Below, piece after piece: positions 2,225 to 25,089 of a stretch of DNA of 37,827 nt. The number at the start of each line of letters is the position of its first letter. Position 1 is the stretch's first letter. Source of the stretch: Candidatus Hydrogenedentota bacterium (GTDB taxonomy: Bacteria > Hydrogenedentota > Hydrogenedentia > Hydrogenedentales > CAITNO01). The notes under the pieces were generated by a model, which was not told the DNA's origin, made no database searches, and saw only the letters and a list, made by a program, of their open reading frames with translations. The stretch spans positions 1 to 37,827 of the forward strand of contig JAAYBJ010000044.1 in the NCBI GenBank assembly GCA_012730105.1, read 5' to 3'. The translations under genes were made by a program, and so were the position numbers.

Positions 2225-3154
2225 TCAGCGGGCCTTTCGGACACGGTCCAGCATGCCCGCAAAGGAGAATTCCGGTTCCTGGACGCCCAGCCGCAGGCCG
2301 ATGGTGCGCTCCAAGACCACCCAGGTGCCGTCACGCTTGACCGCGTTGTCCCAGCGGACAATGCCGTAACAGTCCTCCCCCTTCCGCGCGAAAAAAAACC
2401 GCTCGCGCCCGGCATCCTGCTGCATGCACTGGTTGATCACGATGGCCTCGTCAAAAGCAGTAAAAGCGGTATCAGGCGCATACCCGTCCGGACAAGGGCC
2501 GTCAAAGAACGTGCTGAAGGACGCCTGCCGCTCAAGAAACACCGCATTATCGAGGAAGCGCTCCTGCCACCGGGGCGCGGTCCGGTCATGATACCCGTTC
2601 CAGGTGTTGCAGATATAGGTGTTGATGCAGCCACTGTGCCGCCACGCAGTGGAGGCCTCGAGGGGGGCGAAAACGCGGCCCAGGCGCCAGTCCTCCCGTT
2701 CCCCCGCTTCCACAAAAAGCCGGAACCTGTCGGGACGCGGGTCCCAGACGAGGCTATCGGGCCCATCCACGGGCGTACGCGGCGGAAAGGTTTCCATATG
2801 CAGGCGGACCAGCGTGTCGTCATAGGTGAAAATCTCCCCATAATAGTCCGCGTTCAGGGCGTCCTTGCGCCACAGGACCACCTTGTATTCGGGAACAACC
2901 CATGTGCGAAAACACTGGGTATCGGGAATTACAGCCTGCCACGGCGCACCGTCTCCATCGCGACGCTGTGCGTGGGTAACGATGTACTGTTCCAGCGGGA
3001 GGGTACAGTCCATGAACCGGAGCATTTCCGGCAGCGGATCGGCAACGGCGGCAACGCACAACAGCAACGCCGCACACAAAGGTCTCAAAAACGGGGCGTG
3101 AAAACAGGCGTTGCTGGTTCCCGCAGAACGTATTTCCCCTGAAACGATCAGCAT
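2225..3154 (-). CDS. Secreted protein of unknown function
   Basis: I do not recognise this 309-residue protein. Codons 17-39 encode a hydrophobic stretch (PLCAALLLCVAAVADP) that looks like a signal peptide, preceded by an unusually long polar start, so translation may begin later, for example at an in-frame TTG just before that stretch. The mature part is rich in Trp, Asp and Phe and has scattered cysteines (CINTYICNTWNGYHD near its middle), as expected for an extracytoplasmic beta-rich protein with possible disulfides. The annotated ATG overlaps the end of the isomerase-like gene upstream by 7 bases (ATGCTGA), so the two genes are probably translationally coupled. It is the last gene of the long minus-strand block. 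Confidence is good that it is a gene and poor for function. Confidence 0.7.
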   Translation of the reverse strand: MLIVSGEIRSAGTSNACFHAPFLRPLCAALLLCVAAVADPLPEMLRFMDCTLPLEQYIVTHAQRRDGDGAPWQAVIPDTQCFRTWVVPEYKVVLWRKDALNADYYGEIFTYDDTLVRLHMETFPPRTPVDGPDSLVWDPRPDRFRLFVEAGEREDWRLGRVFAPLEASTAWRHSGCINTYICNTWNGYHDRTAPRWQERFLDNAVFLERQASFSTFFDGPCPDGYAPDTAFTAFDEAIVINQCMQQDAGRERFFFARKGEDCYGIVRWDNAVKRDGTWVVLERTIGLRLGVQEPEFSFAGMLDRVRKAR

Positions 3155-4221: not shown

Positions 4222-4800
4222 TCAACGCGGACGTTGTTTTCCCGCCTTATGGCAAATCGCGTCAAAGAGCGCCGACACGGGTGCGATGCCCATATCATTA
4301 AAATTGCCGGGTTTCTGCCAGAACTCTTCCAGGCAGCCGCGCTGTTCCTTCTCGTAACACAGCACCTTGAGCATCATCTGCGCCTTGTCCAGCGCACGCA
4401 GCAGACGGGCCTCGCTGGTCTTCCCCGCGAGAAATTCGTCGTGCAACGCGGAATAATAGGCGGGAAACTTTTCAAACAGTTCGTTGAAAACGCCCTGTTC
4501 GGCCTTTTCCTTGGCGTCGCCCAGCCATGCGTTGGCCACGGGCATGGGAATATCCATCAATTTCGCTTCGGACAAATCATGCACCAGCGCCATGGCCAGC
4601 ACTTTGCCCTGGTCATAGTCTTCGGGATGTTCACGAACGAACATCAGCGCCAGAGTGGCCAGGAAATGGCTGTGGGCGGCGACGGATTCGGGGTCGGGCA
4701 CCCCCCGGAGCAGAAAGCCGGCCCGGGGTACCCGATCCAGAGAATGAATACGCCAAAATAGCTGCAGCACGTCTTCAGCAAAGTTCGTAAAATCCCTCAA
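4222..4800 (-). CDS. HD-domain phosphohydrolase (YfbR/HDDC2-like)
   Basis: A 192-residue HD-superfamily protein of the 5'-deoxynucleotidase YfbR/HDDC2 type, which removes phosphate from deoxynucleoside monophosphates using a divalent metal. The metal-binding residues are visible: His43 in ESVAAHSHFLA, the His74-Asp75 pair in ALVHDLSEA with Glu78, and a later Asp in RALDKAQMML. Length matches the family. The start is a TTG at 4800, sharing the four bases TTGA with the stop of the DnaA-like gene; an AGAGGAG Shine-Dalgarno eight bases upstream supports this non-ATG start and implies tight translational coupling. The exact substrate (dNMP or another phosphate ester) is inferred from family only. 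Confidence 0.85.
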   Translation of the reverse strand: MRDFTNFAEDVLQLFWRIHSLDRVPRAGFLLRGVPDPESVAAHSHFLATLALMFVREHPEDYDQGKVLAMALVHDLSEAKLMDIPMPVANAWLGDAKEKAEQGVFNELFEKFPAYYSALHDEFLAGKTSEARLLRALDKAQMMLKVLCYEKEQRGCLEEFWQKPGNFNDMGIAPVSALFDAICHKAGKQRPR

Positions 4801-6023
4801 GACGGCCGCTCCTCTTCCAGGTTTGGAGTTGTCAGGAATTCCTCCTGGGATTGCCGCTCTTCCTGCAGCCCAGGGTCGTCGGAAAATTCGTCAAGCAAGG
4901 GGGGCAGCTCCGCCCCCTGCGTCACGGGAACCTTGCTTTCAAGGGCTTCCAGTTGTCCGGCAATGGCATCCAGTGTTTTCCTGGACTCCGCGTACAGCGC
5001 CTCATCCTGTGCGCCCGATTCCACACGCACGGCGTTTTTGGCCAGCCCCGCCACGGTTTCACGGATCCCGCTGATCACGCTGTTCACCTCCAACTCCTGC
5101 TTTTCCAGCGCTTCGGCGAGCTTTTGTGATGTGTCGCGCAGATGCCTGATTTCCTCATCCTTTACGGCGATAACCCGCCTGGCCTCATCCAGGTCTTCCA
5201 GATCGCCGTTTATGGCGGTGTTGCCGATCAGGGAAACGGTACCGCGACCCTCCCCCCCGGCGGTCGCTGCGGCCAACACATGATCCGCCGCCTTCGACAG
5301 GGCTTCAAAACGTTCCTCATACAGGGCCTTCTGCTTTTCAAAGCGTTGCAGGATCTGGGCAACGCCATTTTGCCAGGCTTCGACCTCTTCGGGAGATACG
5401 ACAGGTTCCTGTCCACGCCAGGGGCCTTCCCCCTGCGCGCCCTTCGGCAGGCCCGCGCCGCTTTCCTCCAACGTGGCAATTTTGCGCTTGAGCATGACAA
5501 TCTGCTGCAGGGCCGCTTCCGGAATGGCGGAGTCGTTGTTCTTCGGCAGCGCTTTCATGCCGATGATGACGCCGCTGTTCAAAAAGGCCTTCAGTTTTCC
5601 GCTGAGCATGGGCAGCACGTTGGGATGAATCTGGGTGGCCAGCACGGCGGTATGGCCGTACTCATTCACAACATAGAGAACCCGCTCCAAATCAGCGATG
5701 TCCCTGGGTGAAAAGAGGTGCAGGTCGTCCACCAGCAACACCACGGGCATGCCCGAGGTCAATTTGTCGGGAACCACGGCCAGGTCCTTAACCTTGGCAG
5801 GGAAATCAGAGGCGGAAATCAGGGCCACGCCCACGTTCACCTTGTTCGTGCGGTAATGATTCACAAGCGCCCACAAGAGGTGGCTTTTGCCCGCACCCGA
5901 TTCACCCAACAGCACAATCGGGGATTTGCGCTCCCCTTCGAAATGGGCCAACCTGAAACAACTGTCATAGGCGTTCTGGTTGGACGCGTGATTGATGAAA
6001 TTATCGAAGGTCAAGCCTTTCAT
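4797..6023 (-). CDS. DnaA-like P-loop ATPase with coiled-coil C-terminus
   Basis: A 408-residue cytoplasmic ATPase. Residues 4-20 (LTFDNFINHASNQNAYD) resemble the start of the DnaA AAA+ module, followed by Walker A GESGAGKS (40-47) and Walker B VVLLVDD (94-100). After the P-loop core the DnaA box-VII region is altered: where DnaA has an SRF motif carrying an arginine, this protein reads KAFLNSGVIIGM. No DnaA DNA-binding domain IV is seen. From about residue 170 the chain becomes charged and heptad-like (MLKRKIATLEE; RRVIAVKDEEIRHLRDTSQK), indicating long coiled coils up to about residue 370, ending in an acidic tail. So it is not the replication initiator itself; a scaffold, localisation or loader-type role is possible. 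The ATG at 6023 has an AGGAG site and fits the family start better than the upstream ATG at 6068. It overlaps the HD gene by one TTGA. Confidence 0.85.
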   Translation of the reverse strand: MKGLTFDNFINHASNQNAYDSCFRLAHFEGERKSPIVLLGESGAGKSHLLWALVNHYRTNKVNVGVALISASDFPAKVKDLAVVPDKLTSGMPVVLLVDDLHLFSPRDIADLERVLYVVNEYGHTAVLATQIHPNVLPMLSGKLKAFLNSGVIIGMKALPKNNDSAIPEAALQQIVMLKRKIATLEESGAGLPKGAQGEGPWRGQEPVVSPEEVEAWQNGVAQILQRFEKQKALYEERFEALSKAADHVLAAATAGGEGRGTVSLIGNTAINGDLEDLDEARRVIAVKDEEIRHLRDTSQKLAEALEKQELEVNSVISGIRETVAGLAKNAVRVESGAQDEALYAESRKTLDAIAGQLEALESKVPVTQGAELPPLLDEFSDDPGLQEERQSQEEFLTTPNLEEERPS

Positions 6024-6148: not shown

Positions 6149-6925
6149 CTAGAGCTTCAGTCCCGCACCGTTGTCGCGGTCCTGCCGCAGTTTCCATAAT
6201 TTCGCGTATTTGGTGAAAACGGAAAATGCGGACAGGCCGCAAAGCACCGCGCCATGATACCCGTCCAGGAAACCACGGCGCAGCACATACATTTTCAGGA
6301 ACCGCAGCCCGGGGCGCAGGATCAAATCAGAGAGACCGGCGCGCTTCCCCCGGTCAAAGGCGTCTTGGGCGCCCCAGCTGGTAAATCGCCGCATGGTCGC
6401 GAAATATTCATCGAAGCTGCGGTAGGTGTCGTGATACATGACCTCGTTGATGGTCCCCACTTGCCCGTCCACAATCACTTTGGAATGCACCCGCTTGTCC
6501 AGGTATTTCCCTTTCTCCGTTCTGAACAGACGGAGGTTATAGTCGTGATGCCAACCGCAATGCTGAATCAGTTTGCCAAGGAAATAGGAATGGCGCAGGA
6601 TCTGGTAGCCATCCGGGCCCCCGTCCACGCGGACGATTTCACGAATACGGTTCGCCAGGGCTTCGGAAACCCATTCATCGGCATCCAGCACAAGGGTCCA
6701 TTCCGTGGTTACCTGGGGAAGCGCCCAGTTGCGCTGGGCGGCCGCGTTTTCATATTCGTGAACCGCGACATGGTCCGTGTACCCGCGCGCCGCGACGACG
6801 GCCTCCTCCGGGGCGCGGGCGTCCACCACGCAGAAGATATCGTCCGCCCAGCGCACGCTGTCCAGACACTTGGGCAGGCGGTCATACTGCGGCGGGACCA
6901 GTGTCAATACGGTAACATCATGCAT
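6149..6925 (-). CDS. Family 2 glycosyltransferase (WaaE-like)
   Basis: A 258-residue cytoplasmic or membrane-associated inverting glycosyltransferase of the WaaE/KdtX subgroup, which adds a hexose to a lipopolysaccharide core or related glycan from an NDP-sugar. The subgroup signature is clear: CLDSVRWADDIFCVVD near residues 20-35, RNWALPQVTTEWTLVLDADEW near 65-85 with the metal-binding DAD, and YNLRLFRTEKGKYLDKRVHSK in the acceptor half. The ATG at 6925 is preferred over 6964 because it lies seven bases after AGGAG and opens directly on the first Rossmann strand. It sits downstream of an asparagine synthase and a GT4 enzyme with a repeat-filled 376-bp gap between. Donor and acceptor are unknown. 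Confidence 0.87.
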   Translation of the reverse strand: MHDVTVLTLVPPQYDRLPKCLDSVRWADDIFCVVDARAPEEAVVAARGYTDHVAVHEYENAAAQRNWALPQVTTEWTLVLDADEWVSEALANRIREIVRVDGGPDGYQILRHSYFLGKLIQHCGWHHDYNLRLFRTEKGKYLDKRVHSKVIVDGQVGTINEVMYHDTYRSFDEYFATMRRFTSWGAQDAFDRGKRAGLSDLILRPGLRFLKMYVLRRGFLDGYHGAVLCGLSAFSVFTKYAKLWKLRQDRDNGAGLKL

Positions 6926-6971
6926 CAATACACTCCTGAACGGGACTGTTGAATGGATTGCCATTCTGTAC

Positions 6972-7054
6972 GTTGTTCACGCTTCAGCGTGCCGGGTTTA
7001 GCGGTAAGGCCCAAGTTTACCATGTTGAGCCCGACACACTGAAGTGTGAACAAC
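6972..7054. repeat. REP-like nested inverted repeat
   Basis: The 25-bp arm at 6972-6996 (beginning GTTGTTCACGCTTCAGCGTG) is matched in reverse complement by 7030-7054 (ending CACTGAAGTGTGAACAAC) with about three mismatches. Each arm contains its own small palindrome (CACGCT/AGCGTG and CACACT/AGTGTG), so either one long or two short hairpins can form. The pattern is typical of REP or other small non-autonomous palindromic elements. No transposase is in the window. Confidence 0.65.
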
Positions 7055-7117
7055 ACACAACGCTTCAGAGCGCGACACACCCTGAGGACCGGGTTGTTTG
7101 TAATGAGAAATAATTTT

Positions 7118-7258
7118 GTAGGCCGGGTAGAGCGGGCCTTAACGATTCAAACCGTGATATTTCTATTTCTCCAAAAAATACGTTCAGCACCAGCGACATG
7201 ATCTATCCAAAGCGGAACCCGCCTTTGCGTTGCATGCACAGACGGTGAAGGCGGGTTA
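7118..7258. repeat. Composite intergenic repeat, copy A
   Basis: Begins with GTAGGCCGGGTAGAGCGGG (7118-7136) and ends with a hairpin of AACCCGCCTT (7216-7225) and AAGGCGGGTT (7248-7257). The same two blocks occur at nearly the same spacing (98 versus 97 bases between block starts) at 25260-25400, so these are two diverged copies of one element of about 140 bp. It lies immediately 3' of asnB. Confidence 0.7.
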
Positions 7259-7301
7259 CGCTCTGCTATTTCTACAAGTCCTGTTTTTTTATACCCGGAA
7301 T

Positions 7302-9179
7302 TCACCCTGTTCCATACAACCTGCGCCATTGTTCAAACACGATGAGCGCCCACAGGTGCCACGTGTAATCCCGGCGCGCACGGCGGTGGTCCTCGAGCAT
7401 GCGCGCCACGGCGGCGGGATTGAACAGTCCGCCCTGTATCAACGCTTCCGGGGACAGAAAATCTTGAACCACTTCCCGCAGCGGGCCGTTCAGCCAGACG
7501 CCCATGGGTGGATTAAACCCGGCCTTCCTGCGGTTCACTACTTCCGGCGGGAGATATTTCGACAACACACCGCGCAGAAGGCGCTTGCCGCGGCCGCCTT
7601 TTATTTTGAGCCTGCCGGGCACGCCCAGGAGAAACGACAACAGATCCGGGTCGGCCAGGGGCACGCGCACTTCCAGCGAATGGGCCATGCTCATGCGGTC
7701 GCCGTACTGAAGCACATTGTTGGGCAGGAAAGACATGCAGTCGACATACATCGCCCGGGAAACGGGATCGTCCGCGCCGGATTCCAGTGCGAGGCCCCGG
7801 ATATAATCGCGGGAATCGCGCCCGGTCAACGCGGCTGATACCTCGCCGATATAGAGTTCCCCGCGCTCCTGCAGGCTGTAGTAACCGACCCAGCCGGCAT
7901 ACATGTCCACCGGGTCGGAAAGGGTGCCCGCCGAGAATTCCCGAAGGCGCCTCAGGGTGTGGAACCCGGAAACGCTTTCCGGAAGGCACTGCACCAAGGG
8001 GTTGAGGAGCGTCCGCCGCAACAGCGCCGGCACCCTGCGGTACTGCTCCGCCCAGGCCGCGCCCCGGTAGCGCGGATAGCCGCCGAAAGCCTCGTCGCCC
8101 CCGTCCCCGGACAATACAACGGTGACATGCGTGCGCACCAGTTCACAGATCGACCAGGTCAGCAGGGCCGTAGGGTTTCCGAAAGGCTCGTCGAAGTGAC
8201 CGACCATACGTGGCAAGAGTTCCGCCACGGCAGGTGTCACAGTGAGTTCTTGATGACGCGCGCCCAGCAAGGCAGCCAGCGCGCGGGCTTCGGCGCTTTC
8301 ATCGTACAGGGCCCCTTCCGCGCCAAAGCCGACCGTGAAGGTCATCGGCGCGGCGCCCTGCGCGGCCAGGTAGCGGGTAATGGCCGCCGAGTCCAGCCCG
8401 CCGCTGAGAAACGCGCCCAGGGGCACATCCGCGACACGGTACAGCGCCAGGATAGTGGCGAGCCGCGTGTCAATCTCTTCGATCAGGTCCGCCTCGGAAC
8501 GGCTTTCCTCGTCTTTCCCAGGGCATGGTTTCCAATACCGACGGACTGTCAGTTGTCCGTTGTTCCAGGAGGCGCAATGGCCGGGCGGCAGCTGCTTGAT
8601 GCCCCGGTAAATAGTCCGCGGCGGCACGGTGTACAGATAGGTCAGATAATCGTCCAGGCTTTCCAGGTCAAGGGCGCGGTCAATACCGGGACAGATCAGC
8701 AGGGCCTTCATTTCAGAAGCAAAATACAGGGCCCCTCCCGTTTCGGCGTAATACAGCGGTTTCACGCCCACGGGATCCCGCGCCAGGAAAAGCCGTTTCT
8801 CATGGCGGTCCCAAAGGGCGAAGGCGAACATGCCCCGGAACCGTTCCACGCAGGCCTCGCCCCATTGGGCGTACGCGGCCAGCAGGACTTCCGTGTCCGA
8901 ACGGGTCTGAAACACATGGCCGCAGCCTTCGAGCTCCCGGCGCAATACCTGAAAGTTGTAGACTTCGCCGTTATAGACAATTTGGTAGCGGCCGCCGGCA
9001 TAGGCCATGGGCTGGGCGCCGCCCGCGAGATCAATAATGGAAAGGCGCCGATGACCGAGGGAGACGGCATCATCCGTGTACTGCCCCTCCCCGTCCGGGC
9101 CGCGATGGACCAGGGTGTCCGTCATGGCCCGTATCAGCGCCGCGTCGGGGCGGCCCGCTATGCCCGCAATCCCGCACAT
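7302..9179 (-). CDS. asnB: Asparagine synthase (glutamine-hydrolysing)
   Basis: A 625-residue AsnB-type enzyme. It hydrolyses glutamine in an N-terminal class-II amidotransferase domain (nucleophile Cys2 in MCGIAG; NGEVYN near residue 70; SDTEVLL near 94) and passes ammonia to a C-terminal ATP-dependent synthetase domain (PP-loop SGGLDS at 259-264; SGDGGDEAFGGY further on). In free asparagine synthesis the substrate is aspartate, but homologues in polysaccharide loci are thought to amidate sugar acids or act in exopolysaccharide assembly. The start ATG at 9179 is fixed by the need for Cys2. It begins three bases after the stop of the GT4 gene, so the two are co-transcribed. This placement between glycosyltransferases suggests the surface-glycan role, without excluding ordinary asparagine supply. 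Confidence 0.93.
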   Translation of the reverse strand: MCGIAGIAGRPDAALIRAMTDTLVHRGPDGEGQYTDDAVSLGHRRLSIIDLAGGAQPMAYAGGRYQIVYNGEVYNFQVLRRELEGCGHVFQTRSDTEVLLAAYAQWGEACVERFRGMFAFALWDRHEKRLFLARDPVGVKPLYYAETGGALYFASEMKALLICPGIDRALDLESLDDYLTYLYTVPPRTIYRGIKQLPPGHCASWNNGQLTVRRYWKPCPGKDEESRSEADLIEEIDTRLATILALYRVADVPLGAFLSGGLDSAAITRYLAAQGAAPMTFTVGFGAEGALYDESAEARALAALLGARHQELTVTPAVAELLPRMVGHFDEPFGNPTALLTWSICELVRTHVTVVLSGDGGDEAFGGYPRYRGAAWAEQYRRVPALLRRTLLNPLVQCLPESVSGFHTLRRLREFSAGTLSDPVDMYAGWVGYYSLQERGELYIGEVSAALTGRDSRDYIRGLALESGADDPVSRAMYVDCMSFLPNNVLQYGDRMSMAHSLEVRVPLADPDLLSFLLGVPGRLKIKGGRGKRLLRGVLSKYLPPEVVNRRKAGFNPPMGVWLNGPLREVVQDFLSPEALIQGGLFNPAAVARMLEDHRRARRDYTWHLWALIVFEQWRRLYGTG

Positions 9180-9182
9180 ACA

Positions 9183-10319
9183 CTATTCCAACCGGTTAAT
9201 GGCTTCGATGAGCCGCCGCTCATCCTGCTGCCAGTTGTATTTTTCTTCCACCGCCCGGCGCCCGTTTTGCCCGAGCCGCGCCGCCTTTTCCGAATCCCGC
9301 AGCAGCTCCAGCACGGCCCCGGCAATGGCATCGGGCGAGGTAATATCCACCAGGATGCCGCAGTCCGCCTCCCCCACGATCCGGGACACTTCGATGGAAA
9401 AGGCGGGCGCAATCACGGGCTTCGCCTCGCGCATGTAATCGAACAGTTTATGGGGCATGGCCAGCGTGTGGTTGGGCAGGCCCGGCTGGAACAGGATCAG
9501 TCCGATCCGGGCAACGGCGATGTAGGCGGGCACCTGCTCATAAGGCACGGCGTCCAGCAGGACGATATGCTGTTCCAGCCCCGCATCGCGAATGGCCCGC
9601 CGGTAGGCACTCTCGTCGCCATAGGCGTAACGGCCCAGCACAATGCACCGAATGTCCGGCAGTTCCACCGCCACTTGTTTCATGGCCTCGAGCAATTGAT
9701 AAGAACCACGAATGTCGCCGAAGATGCCCTGATGGATCAGCGTAGGACGAGAAGCATAAGCGTCCTTTAGAAATTCGGGAATGGAGGCACACTGCGGCTG
9801 CAGGTGATTTGTGTTGATAACGGTCACGCGCGGCGTTTTCAGCCCAGTCCAGAAAACATCAAAACTGTCCCGGGTCAGGATAATTAGGTCCGTGAAACGC
9901 GCGAAGAGGCGCATGAAACGCAGGGTGAGCCACGCGACGATCCCCCGGAAACAGGCCGGAAAGAATTTCGCGAATTCGCTGGGGATATGCTCGTGCATGT
10001 CCAGCACCACTTTGCCGCCGCCCGTCATTTTGATCACCAGCGCGGCCACCCAGGATTCCGGTTCCGGGGCGATATAAAGGTCGGCCCGTTCCCGCCGCCC
10101 CAGCCGCGCCAACCGCGCCACGGACCAAAACCGCGCTGCGAAACTGAGCGCTTCCGGAACGGAAATGAAGCGCACCCCGCCTTCCCCGTCCGGCGCCGCA
10201 CCGGTCCCAGGTGCGATGGAAACGACTTCATGCCCGGCCGCAACCAGGCTCCGGGCAACCTTGTGGTACATGCGCTTGTCCAGCGCGTCATGAAGCACAT
10301 TGAGCAGGCAGATTTTCAT
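9183..10319 (-). CDS. Family 4 glycosyltransferase
   Basis: A 378-residue retaining glycosyltransferase with GT-B fold. The N-terminal acceptor half starts at MKICLLNVLHDALDKRMYHK and contains GHEVVSIAPG and VVLDMHEHIPSEF; the C-terminal nucleotide-sugar half contains HQGIFGDIRGSYQLLEAM and the conserved E-x7-E region (EAKPVIAPAFSIEVSRIVGE) followed by CGILVD. The ATG at 10319 is chosen over the upstream frame opening (10466) because the family always starts at this beta strand. It ends three bases before asnB and follows the bi-domain oxidoreductase by 153 bp. Function: addition of a sugar during surface polysaccharide or glycolipid synthesis; donor unknown. Confidence 0.88.
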   Translation of the reverse strand: MKICLLNVLHDALDKRMYHKVARSLVAAGHEVVSIAPGTGAAPDGEGGVRFISVPEALSFAARFWSVARLARLGRRERADLYIAPEPESWVAALVIKMTGGGKVVLDMHEHIPSEFAKFFPACFRGIVAWLTLRFMRLFARFTDLIILTRDSFDVFWTGLKTPRVTVINTNHLQPQCASIPEFLKDAYASRPTLIHQGIFGDIRGSYQLLEAMKQVAVELPDIRCIVLGRYAYGDESAYRRAIRDAGLEQHIVLLDAVPYEQVPAYIAVARIGLILFQPGLPNHTLAMPHKLFDYMREAKPVIAPAFSIEVSRIVGEADCGILVDITSPDAIAGAVLELLRDSEKAARLGQNGRRAVEEKYNWQQDERRLIEAINRLE

Positions 10320-10472
10320 GGGTGAACAACACTTCCCGGTACGAATACCCAGCGACACAGAATCCGCAGGCAGTATAGCACAGCGGGATTGTTCCGGCTT
10401 AGAACGGTTAAGCCCTCTGTACGCCGATTCTATCGGGATACATCCCCCGGCGTTTCGCGCCATCACGCCCTG

Positions 10473-12605
10473 CTATTGTCCCCCCGCACTCCTGATTGCC
10501 TCCTCGGCGATGTAGGTGGCCCAGCGCCCGTCGAGGCCGGTGACCGACAGGGTTTCCCTGCCCTTGACGGCGGCGATGAAATGGGCCAGCAGTTCGCCCA
10601 AGCCTTTGTTCACATGCCGGGCTTTGAGGTTCCGCGCGGAAAGGCCGTAGCAGGACAGGGTCCTGAAATCATCCAGTACAAGACTCGCGCCGCCGCCGAA
10701 GACTTCGACGCGCTCCTTGTCCATGGCGCTGCTGCCCGCACCCGTATACACGATCGTGGCGAGCGAGCCCTGGGCGAAACGCAACAGCACGGTGAGGGAA
10801 TCATTCGCGTAGGCCGCCTGGTCCGTGTCCATGCGCTGCGCCTGGATGTGCACGGGATCATCGTCCAACATCCACCGCGCGAAATCGAAAAAATGGACGG
10901 CTTCTCCGCGAATCCGGCCACCGCCTTCCACGGGGTCCAGCGCCCAATGATTGGCCGGTAGGGGGCCGGCATTGCAGCGGTATACCACTGTTTTGACGCC
11001 CGCGATTCTCCCCAGGGCTTCCTTGGCAGCCACGGCAAGGGGCGCGAAGCGTCGGTTGAAGCCCACGGCAAGCAGCACGCCCTGTTTTTCGGCGGCGTCA
11101 CAGATTTCATCGCAATCCGCCACGGTCAGGGCGAGCGGTTTTTCCACGAGCACATGCTTGCCCGCCGCGATGGCGGCCAGGGCCATTTCCTTATGCAGAT
11201 GATGACGCGTCGCAATGATCACGGCATCCACCGCGGCGTCTTTGAGGATGTCCCGGTAATCCGTCGTACAATAGGCGGCGCCAAAGCGTCCGCCCCACTG
11301 TTTGGCTTTCTGGCCGGAACGGTTGGCCACCGCGACCAACCTGCACCCGGGGATGCGTGCGAGATTCGGCAGGTGAAATCCGGTGGCGATGGCGCCCGTA
11401 CCGATAACGGCCACACCGGTTTCCCCGCCCGCTTTCGGCTTGCCTTGAAGGGCGAAAACACGCGGCGGCGGCGCAGGCGCCGCTTCCCCGGACACCTCGC
11501 CGTACCGGATCAGGGCGGCGATGGTGTCCCCGCCGCCCATGACGGCGGCATAGGCCTGTTCCGCCCGCTCCACGGGCTCCGCGACGCTGATCAGCGCTTT
11601 CACCCGGACCCGTTCCGCGTCCACCATGCGCAGAAACTCGGCCATGTTGCGGCCCTGGGTCCAGCGCACATAGCCAATGGGATAATCGAGGCCGCGCTCC
11701 TCGTACTGGCGGTCGTAGCGCCCCGGCCCGTAGGAACAGGACAGCATAAAATCCAGTTCATTCGCGTAAAGAGCGCCTCGTTCCAGGTGCATGCCCACCG
11801 CGCCCACCACCACAACGCGTCCTTTGCGGCGGCATAGTTCCAACGCCTGATTGGCGACGGTGCTGTTCTTCGACGCCGCGCAGACAATGACGCCGTCCGC
11901 ACCGTACCCCGCGGTGCGTTCCGCAACGATCTGTTCCAGGTCTTCCGGCGCGCAGACCACCTCGGCGCCCAGCGTCTCGGCCAAGGCCCGCCGGGAGGCC
12001 ACCGGATCGCAGCCGATGACATGACAGCCGGCGGCGCGCAGGATCTGGGCCACCAGCTGGCCCACGAGCCCCAGGCCGGAAACGACAAAGGTCTCGCCGA
12101 AGGCTGGCTGTGCCCGGCGCACGCCCTGCACCGCGATGGCGCCGAGACTCACGAACGCCGCCTCGTCATAGGACACGTTTTCGGGGATGGGCGTCAGCAG
12201 TTGATGGGGCACCACGTTGTATTCCGCGTGGCAGGCATAGCCCACGCCGGAGCAGGCGACCCGGTCGCCGACGCGGAACAGGGGCGTATCGGGCCCCAGT
12301 TCCACGATGACGCCGGCCGTGCTGTAACCCGGCGCCTGGAACTCCAGCAGTTTGTTGCGGACCAGTTCCAGGGTGCCCTTGACGCCGACCGTCGCCAGTT
12401 TGCGCTTCACCTTTTCGATATTCAGCGGATCGCCCGCTTTCTTGAGCAGGTACCCGGTCGTGCCCCCTTCGGACAGGAATCCCGATTCCGTTCCGGAACT
12501 GATCAGCGAGGCGGCCACGCGCACCACGGCCGTACCGGGTTCCACCGACGGCGCCGGCACCTCCTCAACGGTGACACTGCCGCCTTTAACCAGCACTTGT
12601 TTCAT
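10473..12605 (-). CDS. Bi-domain oxidoreductase: zinc-type alcohol dehydrogenase + Gfo/Idh/MocA
   Basis: A 710-residue fusion of two NAD(P)-dependent enzymes. Residues 1 to about 370 form a medium-chain alcohol dehydrogenase-like unit (GroES-like start EVPAPSVEPGTAVVRVAAS; nucleotide motif SGLGLVGQLVAQ near 173). From about 390 a Gfo/Idh/MocA unit follows (VAVIGTGAIATGFHLPNLARI shortened to its GTGAIA core near 398; VEKPLALT near 487; GRIRGEAVHFFDFARWM later). This exact fusion is a known type in polysaccharide biosynthesis loci, where it probably oxidises and re-reduces a sugar or sugar nucleotide. The ATG at 12605 begins the dehydrogenase proper; the longer frame to 12752 adds a sequence of no family character. 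It is the first gene of the glycan block; a possible promoter (TTGCGG, 18-bp gap, TATGCT on the minus strand, 12705-12676) precedes it. Confidence 0.9.
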   Translation of the reverse strand: MKQVLVKGGSVTVEEVPAPSVEPGTAVVRVAASLISSGTESGFLSEGGTTGYLLKKAGDPLNIEKVKRKLATVGVKGTLELVRNKLLEFQAPGYSTAGVIVELGPDTPLFRVGDRVACSGVGYACHAEYNVVPHQLLTPIPENVSYDEAAFVSLGAIAVQGVRRAQPAFGETFVVSGLGLVGQLVAQILRAAGCHVIGCDPVASRRALAETLGAEVVCAPEDLEQIVAERTAGYGADGVIVCAASKNSTVANQALELCRRKGRVVVVGAVGMHLERGALYANELDFMLSCSYGPGRYDRQYEERGLDYPIGYVRWTQGRNMAEFLRMVDAERVRVKALISVAEPVERAEQAYAAVMGGGDTIAALIRYGEVSGEAAPAPPPRVFALQGKPKAGGETGVAVIGTGAIATGFHLPNLARIPGCRLVAVANRSGQKAKQWGGRFGAAYCTTDYRDILKDAAVDAVIIATRHHLHKEMALAAIAAGKHVLVEKPLALTVADCDEICDAAEKQGVLLAVGFNRRFAPLAVAAKEALGRIAGVKTVVYRCNAGPLPANHWALDPVEGGGRIRGEAVHFFDFARWMLDDDPVHIQAQRMDTDQAAYANDSLTVLLRFAQGSLATIVYTGAGSSAMDKERVEVFGGGASLVLDDFRTLSCYGLSARNLKARHVNKGLGELLAHFIAAVKGRETLSVTGLDGRWATYIAEEAIRSAGGQ

Positions 12606-12812
12606 AGGTCCATTTCCATTCCCGGTTGACACGGCGTTTCCCGCCGCATACCCTGCGCAGGTCTGTTTCCCATTCAGCATACACCATGTCCCGACACGGC
12701 CGCAAAGCCTTGACGGAAACGCTCCGGCATCGTGTGATATCCGGAACGACAACGGAGCGGCGAAATTCGTGGAGGATATTGATCACTGTTTATTGCGCAC
12801 GTGCCCGACAAA

Positions 12813-20856: not shown

Positions 20857-25089
<4,233 letters not shown>

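Follow-up and report, generated by a model that had tools for sequence, protein, structure and literature searches.

Why should a bacterium place a DnaA-like ATPase, with a coiled coil behind its AAA domain, directly before the gene of an HD phosphohydrolase? The question is raised by a stretch of 37,827 nucleotides ("the window" in what follows, meaning that whole stretch) from a member of Hydrogenedentota, a poorly studied bacterial phylum. A first, sequence-only reading had proposed that the locus is a two-gene unit coupling an oligomerising or loader ATPase to nucleotide turnover. Both open reading frames are indeed found at 4222-6023 on the minus strand, ATPase first and HD gene second: the former (4797..6023, with its ATG at 6023 and its stop at 4799-4797) encodes a DnaA-like coiled-coil P-loop protein of 408 aa, the latter (4222..4800, with a TTG start at 4800-4798) an HD_3 / HDDC2-type phosphohydrolase of 192 aa whose catalytic residues are intact. 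The junction is also as described, since stop and TTG start overlap by 4 bp in the sequence TTGA (4800-4797, minus strand) and the announced Shine-Dalgarno is recognisable as a GAGGAG-like stretch (4809..4814, minus strand) lying 8 nt 5' of the TTG.

The head of the 408-aa protein is a DnaA-clade AAA core joined to a coiled coil. This core, residues 1-160 (5544..6023, minus strand), contains all the elements that had been recognised by eye, i.e. the DnaA-type N-terminal strand (LTFDNF), Walker A (GESGAGKS, residues 40-47) and Walker B (VVLLVDD, residues 94-100), and whether one compares profiles, PDB sequences or predicted folds, its top match is DnaA. In Pfam, Bac_DnaA (PF00308) matches residues 4-154 with 58 bits against a cut-off of 23; the protein reaches neither the full-length DnaA equivalog TIGR00362 (55 bits, cut-off 343.9) nor the Hda equivalog TIGR03420 (39 bits, cut-off 194.8). 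A fold search with a model of the AAA domain only (mean pLDDT 90.8) retrieved DnaA (1l8q) at E 1e-10, with other DnaA structures next, followed at about 1e-6 by Hda and subunits of clamp loaders. The full-length AlphaFold2 model likewise has a confident AAA core at residues 1-160 (pLDDT about 95), within a model whose pTM is only 0.47; the alignments under the models are shallow (23-33 sequences). Between Walker A and Walker B it places two short helices (76-82 and 85-90), and two helices at this position are the mark of the initiator clade (review, PMC5742627). The profile search and structure prediction that had been suggested for deciding between DnaA, DnaC, IstB and Hda come out best for the DnaA clade, with DnaC and IstB weaker, and the profile search (Pfam, NCBIfam) assigned no known scaffold family.

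This core has not kept everything that an initiator has. The Arg finger of head-to-tail DnaA contacts is Arg285 (review, PMC5742627); in the window's protein, the alignments put box VII at residues 141-151 of the AAA core (within 5544..6023, minus strand) with no Arg finger in it, the SRF position reading A146-F147-L148, which is the SRF to AFL change noticed from the start. Of the 32 family members scored, 29 have a hydrophobic residue (L, F, I or M) in the finger column, two have R and one has Q. K46 and the Mg-binding D99 are unchanged in 33/33 aligned members, and the second (catalytic) Walker-B acid column has D or E in 15/33, Q in 14/33 and N, G or H in 4/33; the window's own protein retains D100, so some hydrolysis is possible in this case. 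Five DnaA genes of Hydrogenedentota have SRF and both Walker-B acids intact, and the loss of the finger is therefore a trait of the ATPase family and not of the DnaA of this phylum. Finally, the lid with sensor 2 and the helix-turn-helix of domain IV are absent: the core stops near residue 160, and the coil comes after it. The claim that a coiled coil replaces the DNA-binding domain thus holds for domain IV, but told only part of the story, as the lid subdomain of the AAA+ module is displaced as well. Judged by alignments and models, we are dealing with a tether that has retained the ATP pocket of DnaA and lost Arg finger, lid with sensor 2 and DNA-binding domain, many members having lost the catalytic Walker-B acid too. 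From these residues we consider it quite likely that proteins of the family are ATP-binding, hydrolysis-impaired scaffolds.

We looked for the family in 68 Hydrogenedentota genomes, all of one order, and in 318 other genomes; these are MAGs of varying completeness, so that absences are soft. It was found in 59 of the 68, at 184-274 bits in nearly all carriers (DnaA and the other DnaA paralogue score 93 at most), and had no convincing match among the 318 genomes outside the phylum. Four partial or second copies score 130-163 bits (G018:C100, G026:C41, G057:C622 and G045:C46). Three candidates from elsewhere were rejected: the one in G209 (98.8 bits) is a DnaA-sized frame of 460 aa, and those in L112 (named Nitrospiraceae) and L126 (named Rhodothermaeota), which could have passed for transfers, have contig numbers and coordinates identical to those of G057 and G041 of the Hydrogenedentota order, which means that these public MAGs are misnamed or misbinned.

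The HD gene is present in 57/68 genomes of the phylum (E up to 1e-12), being detected by tblastn at several loci where a longer antisense ORF overlies it. In 39 genomes, representing 25 genera and 8 families, it directly follows the ATPase gene and shares its strand; the two-gene unit is thus conserved and its pairing not unique to this contig. The two genes are on different contigs or apart in 12 genomes, of which four are limited by contig ends (G002, G049, G060, G061) and one, G017, is excluded for its diverged 468-aa relative beside the HD gene; the separation is clear in the other seven (G019, G020, G038, G042, G051, G056 and G064). The HD gene also occurs with no ATPase detected (family f7, G025 and G037); taken with the seven clear separations, this shows that the partnership is not obligatory. 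The other flanking genes have been reshuffled, any homologous flank within 3 kb being seen in only 10/434 cross-family locus pairs, and 14/34 loci allow a start codon (TTG, GTG or ATG) to be set within a 4-bp NTGA overlap. The simplest reading is that the arrangement itself is under selection. A fusion of the two genes was considered and none was seen; G047 and G038 have long HD frames (going by frame length only), and in G047 the ATPase has its own frame on the contig that carries HD. Literature searches, covering open-licence papers only, produced no publication on the pair, and the PADLOC library gave no match, whereupon an anti-phage reading was set aside. Within this scope the pair looks undescribed, as had been suspected.

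The second partner, the 192-aa protein, is matched by HD_3 with 90.7 bits against a Pfam cut-off of 22.5, and among solved structures its nearest relatives are HDDC2-type proteins of archaea and human HDDC2 (PDB 4dmb, 2cqz, 1xx7). Seven residues (R26, H43, H74, D75, E78, D83 and D138) are conserved in at least 95% of 48 sequences, and we take these, from YfbR and the spacing of the motifs, to be the metal-binding and catalytic positions of the family (the H, HD, D site plus Glu). The protein thus shares with HDDC2/YfbR-like HD_3 5'-nucleotidases the entire domain and every metal-binding and catalytic residue, and differs from them in sitting in an operon with a coiled-coil gene and in having a conserved C-terminal extension (L178, F179, C183) outside the Pfam match. 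It does not reach the YfbR 5'-deoxynucleotidase equivalog NF003009 (25.8 versus 122 bits). In a trypanosome, a homologue of YfbR and HDDC2 proved to be a metal-dependent 5'-nucleotidase (PMC5098729). By analogy, the HD protein is likely a (d)NMP nucleotidase, and the nucleotide turnover proposed for the locus is plausible as far as membership of the HDDC2/YfbR family goes, tested members being 5'-nucleotidases.

In the ATPase, the helical coiled-coil region covers residues 211-364 (4932..5393, minus strand; AlphaFold2 helices 211-255, 263-335 and 341-364) and is followed by an acidic C-terminal tail, residues 377-408 (4800..4895, minus strand). Full-length members of the family range from 295 to 1576 aa, most of this variation being in the coil, and the tails vary from family to family across the phylum. 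Those of families f2, f8, f10 and f11 bear QxxLF, in the form QPSLF, QIPLF, QGTLF, QPILF, QPPLF or QGVLF. The motif is present in 8/48 tails, in 7/8 cases 44-57 residues before the C-terminal end, and is about nine-fold commoner in tails than in the rest of the same proteins (Fisher p = 5e-4, a value that ignores kinship); strict matches in the last 60 residues number 6, versus a mean of 0.2 in shuffled tails. In bacteria, sequences that bind the clamp follow the consensus QL[S/D]LF, or in a looser form QxxLF (PMC12309361), and in four genomes of the phylum the replicative DnaE has QFSLF or QTSLF at 911-928. The tails of families f2, f8, f10 and f11 suggest, at the level of a sequence motif, that the protein may link DnaA with the sliding clamp in the manner of Hda or YabA. 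The window's own protein was searched for QxxLF without success, and the motif is absent from all f1 relatives and from nearly all f5 relatives. In several tails QxxLF is followed by a short helix-like motif, LxxVVxxAL or AF; f1 tails also hold such a motif, as LTDVVKKAFGDP, and to the eye the window's tail (LPPLLDEFSDDP...EEFLTTP) looks like the f1 tail LTDVVKKAFGDP...DDFTYAEP in weakened form. As a separate observation, genome G017 has two members of the family, a solo one of 1576 aa (L049:7907-12634) and the strongly diverged one of 468 aa (L074:5359-6762), the latter adjoining HD and retaining both tail motifs (QPILF and LLDVIEEAF).

How could such a pair work? We tentatively favour, with rather less than even confidence, a phylum-wide operon that is linked to replication and combines a DnaA-derived nucleotide-binding tether with an HDDC2-type HD phosphohydrolase. 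The tether would bind ATP, hydrolysing it poorly or not at all, and would be dimerised by its coil. The idea of an oligomerising ATPase survives in this form, i.e. via the coil, whereas a DnaA-style filament made by its own AAA domain through ATP and Arg finger looks disabled. The AAA core would be one-sided, with an ATP face that could receive the finger of a DnaA protomer and no finger of its own to donate, so that the tether could cap or capture DnaA. The tail would hold the far end at another partner, in f2, f8, f10 and f11 probably the sliding clamp via QxxLF; in the window's family only the C-terminal helix-like motif would remain in the tail, and any clamp link of the window's protein, in which QxxLF is missing, would be hypothetical. 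The tether would act like YabA or Hda, either keeping DnaA off the origin or restricting how far it assembles, and the HD enzyme, translated together with the tether, would trim (deoxy)nucleoside monophosphates in the same setting. These components do not all deserve the same trust. That the scaffold acts on DnaA or on the replisome is a fair guess with a little less than an even chance of being right; that the two gene products touch each other directly is possible, and we would put it slightly lower. Replication control in its complete form, in which a hydrolysis-dead DnaA mimic on a coiled coil would cap or capture DnaA and link it to the clamp while the operon's nucleotidase tunes local deoxynucleotides, we regard as rather unlikely.

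Bacteria differ in the way they restrain DnaA: Hda leads to ATP hydrolysis by DnaA, YabA to tethering. The former promotes hydrolysis of DnaA-ATP via its Arg finger, and the latter is a coiled-coil tetramer that binds DnaA and DnaN without promoting this hydrolysis (PMC5295017). With domain III of DnaA itself, our tether shares the P-loop core, the N-terminal strand, Walker A and B and the two intervening helices; unlike DnaA, it has no Arg finger, no lid with sensor 2 and no domains I and IV, and has a long coiled coil. It resembles Hda in the DnaA-type AAA core without a DNA-binding domain and, in f2, f8, f10 and f11, in the clamp-like motif, but differs from it in the loss of finger and lid, in a coil of 100 to >1000 aa, and in the C-terminal position of the motif; in the window's protein, the sliding-clamp motif of Hda has no counterpart. 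The likeness to YabA of Firmicutes concerns the proposed mode only (an oligomer held by a coil, with a DnaA end and a clamp end, stimulating no hydrolysis of DnaA-ATP); there is no relation in sequence, and the tether has an AAA head in place of zinc domains. The YabA profile PF06156 had no match above cut-off in the 68 genomes of the phylum, hence none in the window's genome. Since the family has no Arg finger and no YabA profile, the proposal is that the tether would "work like" Hda or YabA, and not that it "is" one of them.

The most serious alternative, though in our opinion a somewhat unlikely one, is that of a cytoskeletal or polar scaffold with ATP-dependent assembly at the pole, the envelope or the division site, the head being an ancestral dimer switch and the HD protein a client or operon partner. 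A length that varies so widely between conserved ends is indeed typical of scaffolds, and tails that differ among families, with no clamp motif in f1 and f5, agree with this idea. However, the head falls in the replication initiator clade by both sequence and fold, QxxLF sits at a nearly fixed position in four families and matches the motif of the phylum's DnaE, and the Pfam scan showed no membrane or pole-targeting domain.

One may also reverse the roles and see in the ATPase a nucleotide-sensing regulator of the HD enzyme, whose degenerate pocket senses adenine nucleotides and whose coil or tail holds and gates the HD protein, the main output being control of the (deoxy)nucleotide pool and not of DnaA. 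The HD gene is the best conserved partner (39 genomes), often with start/stop overlap, and its product keeps all catalytic residues as well as the conserved C-terminal residues described above. The HD gene, however, is retained without the ATPase in f7 and other genomes and is separate in 7 genomes, and its product is far more conserved among relatives (49-85% identity) than the ATPase (roughly 27-57%), so that we find this reading distinctly unlikely.

The loader ATPase of the DnaC/IstB type, the other half of the earlier suggestion, finds no support: IstB, PRK06921 and a phage DnaC-like family do match weakly, and the fold also matches DnaC 3ecc, but DnaA is clearly better in profile, PDB-sequence and fold comparisons, and a protein without Arg finger and lid with sensor 2, its catalytic acid often replaced by Q, makes a very improbable loader. 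It is equally hard to believe in an operon of convenience, i.e. unrelated housekeeping genes together by chance or for expression, for although the genes are also found apart, the pair has held in 25 genera from 8 families, amid flanks that have otherwise nearly all changed, and the overlap has been retained with different start codons.

Some other observations can be recorded here. The second DnaA paralogue of the phylum (L070:5771-8497, i.e. G000:C340; frames of 700-1100 aa in many of its genomes) consists of an MshEN domain (residues 78-159), a long middle part and a DnaA AAA core with lid, SRF and DD intact, and has no DNA-binding domain. In known cases, the MshEN domain binds c-di-GMP. 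This paralogue could act in the manner of Hda and be controlled by c-di-GMP; a search of it for the QxxLF clamp motif found none. In the window, the minus-strand genes upstream of the pair (6149-12752), encoding a glycosyltransferase, an asparagine synthase, a second glycosyltransferase and a fused dehydrogenase/Gfo-Idh protein, resemble an exopolysaccharide cluster, the first genes of which are common only within the genus. Also on the minus strand are a papain-family cysteine protease of 1410 aa with PKD repeats (20857-25089) and a 309-aa ORF (2225-3154) with no Pfam match at E 1e-4.

To return to the replication-linked operon, it is unusual to find a DnaA-clade AAA domain heading a coiled-coil protein, even if no link with replication should exist. 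If the link is true, a phylum-wide DnaA look-alike that has the ATP pocket and no Arg finger would be naturally suited to cap DnaA from one side, and replication control in Hydrogenedentota would unite a head of the Hda type with tethering in the manner of YabA. The stable operon with a nucleotidase, finally, would offer a testable tie between the control of initiation and the supply of nucleotides.
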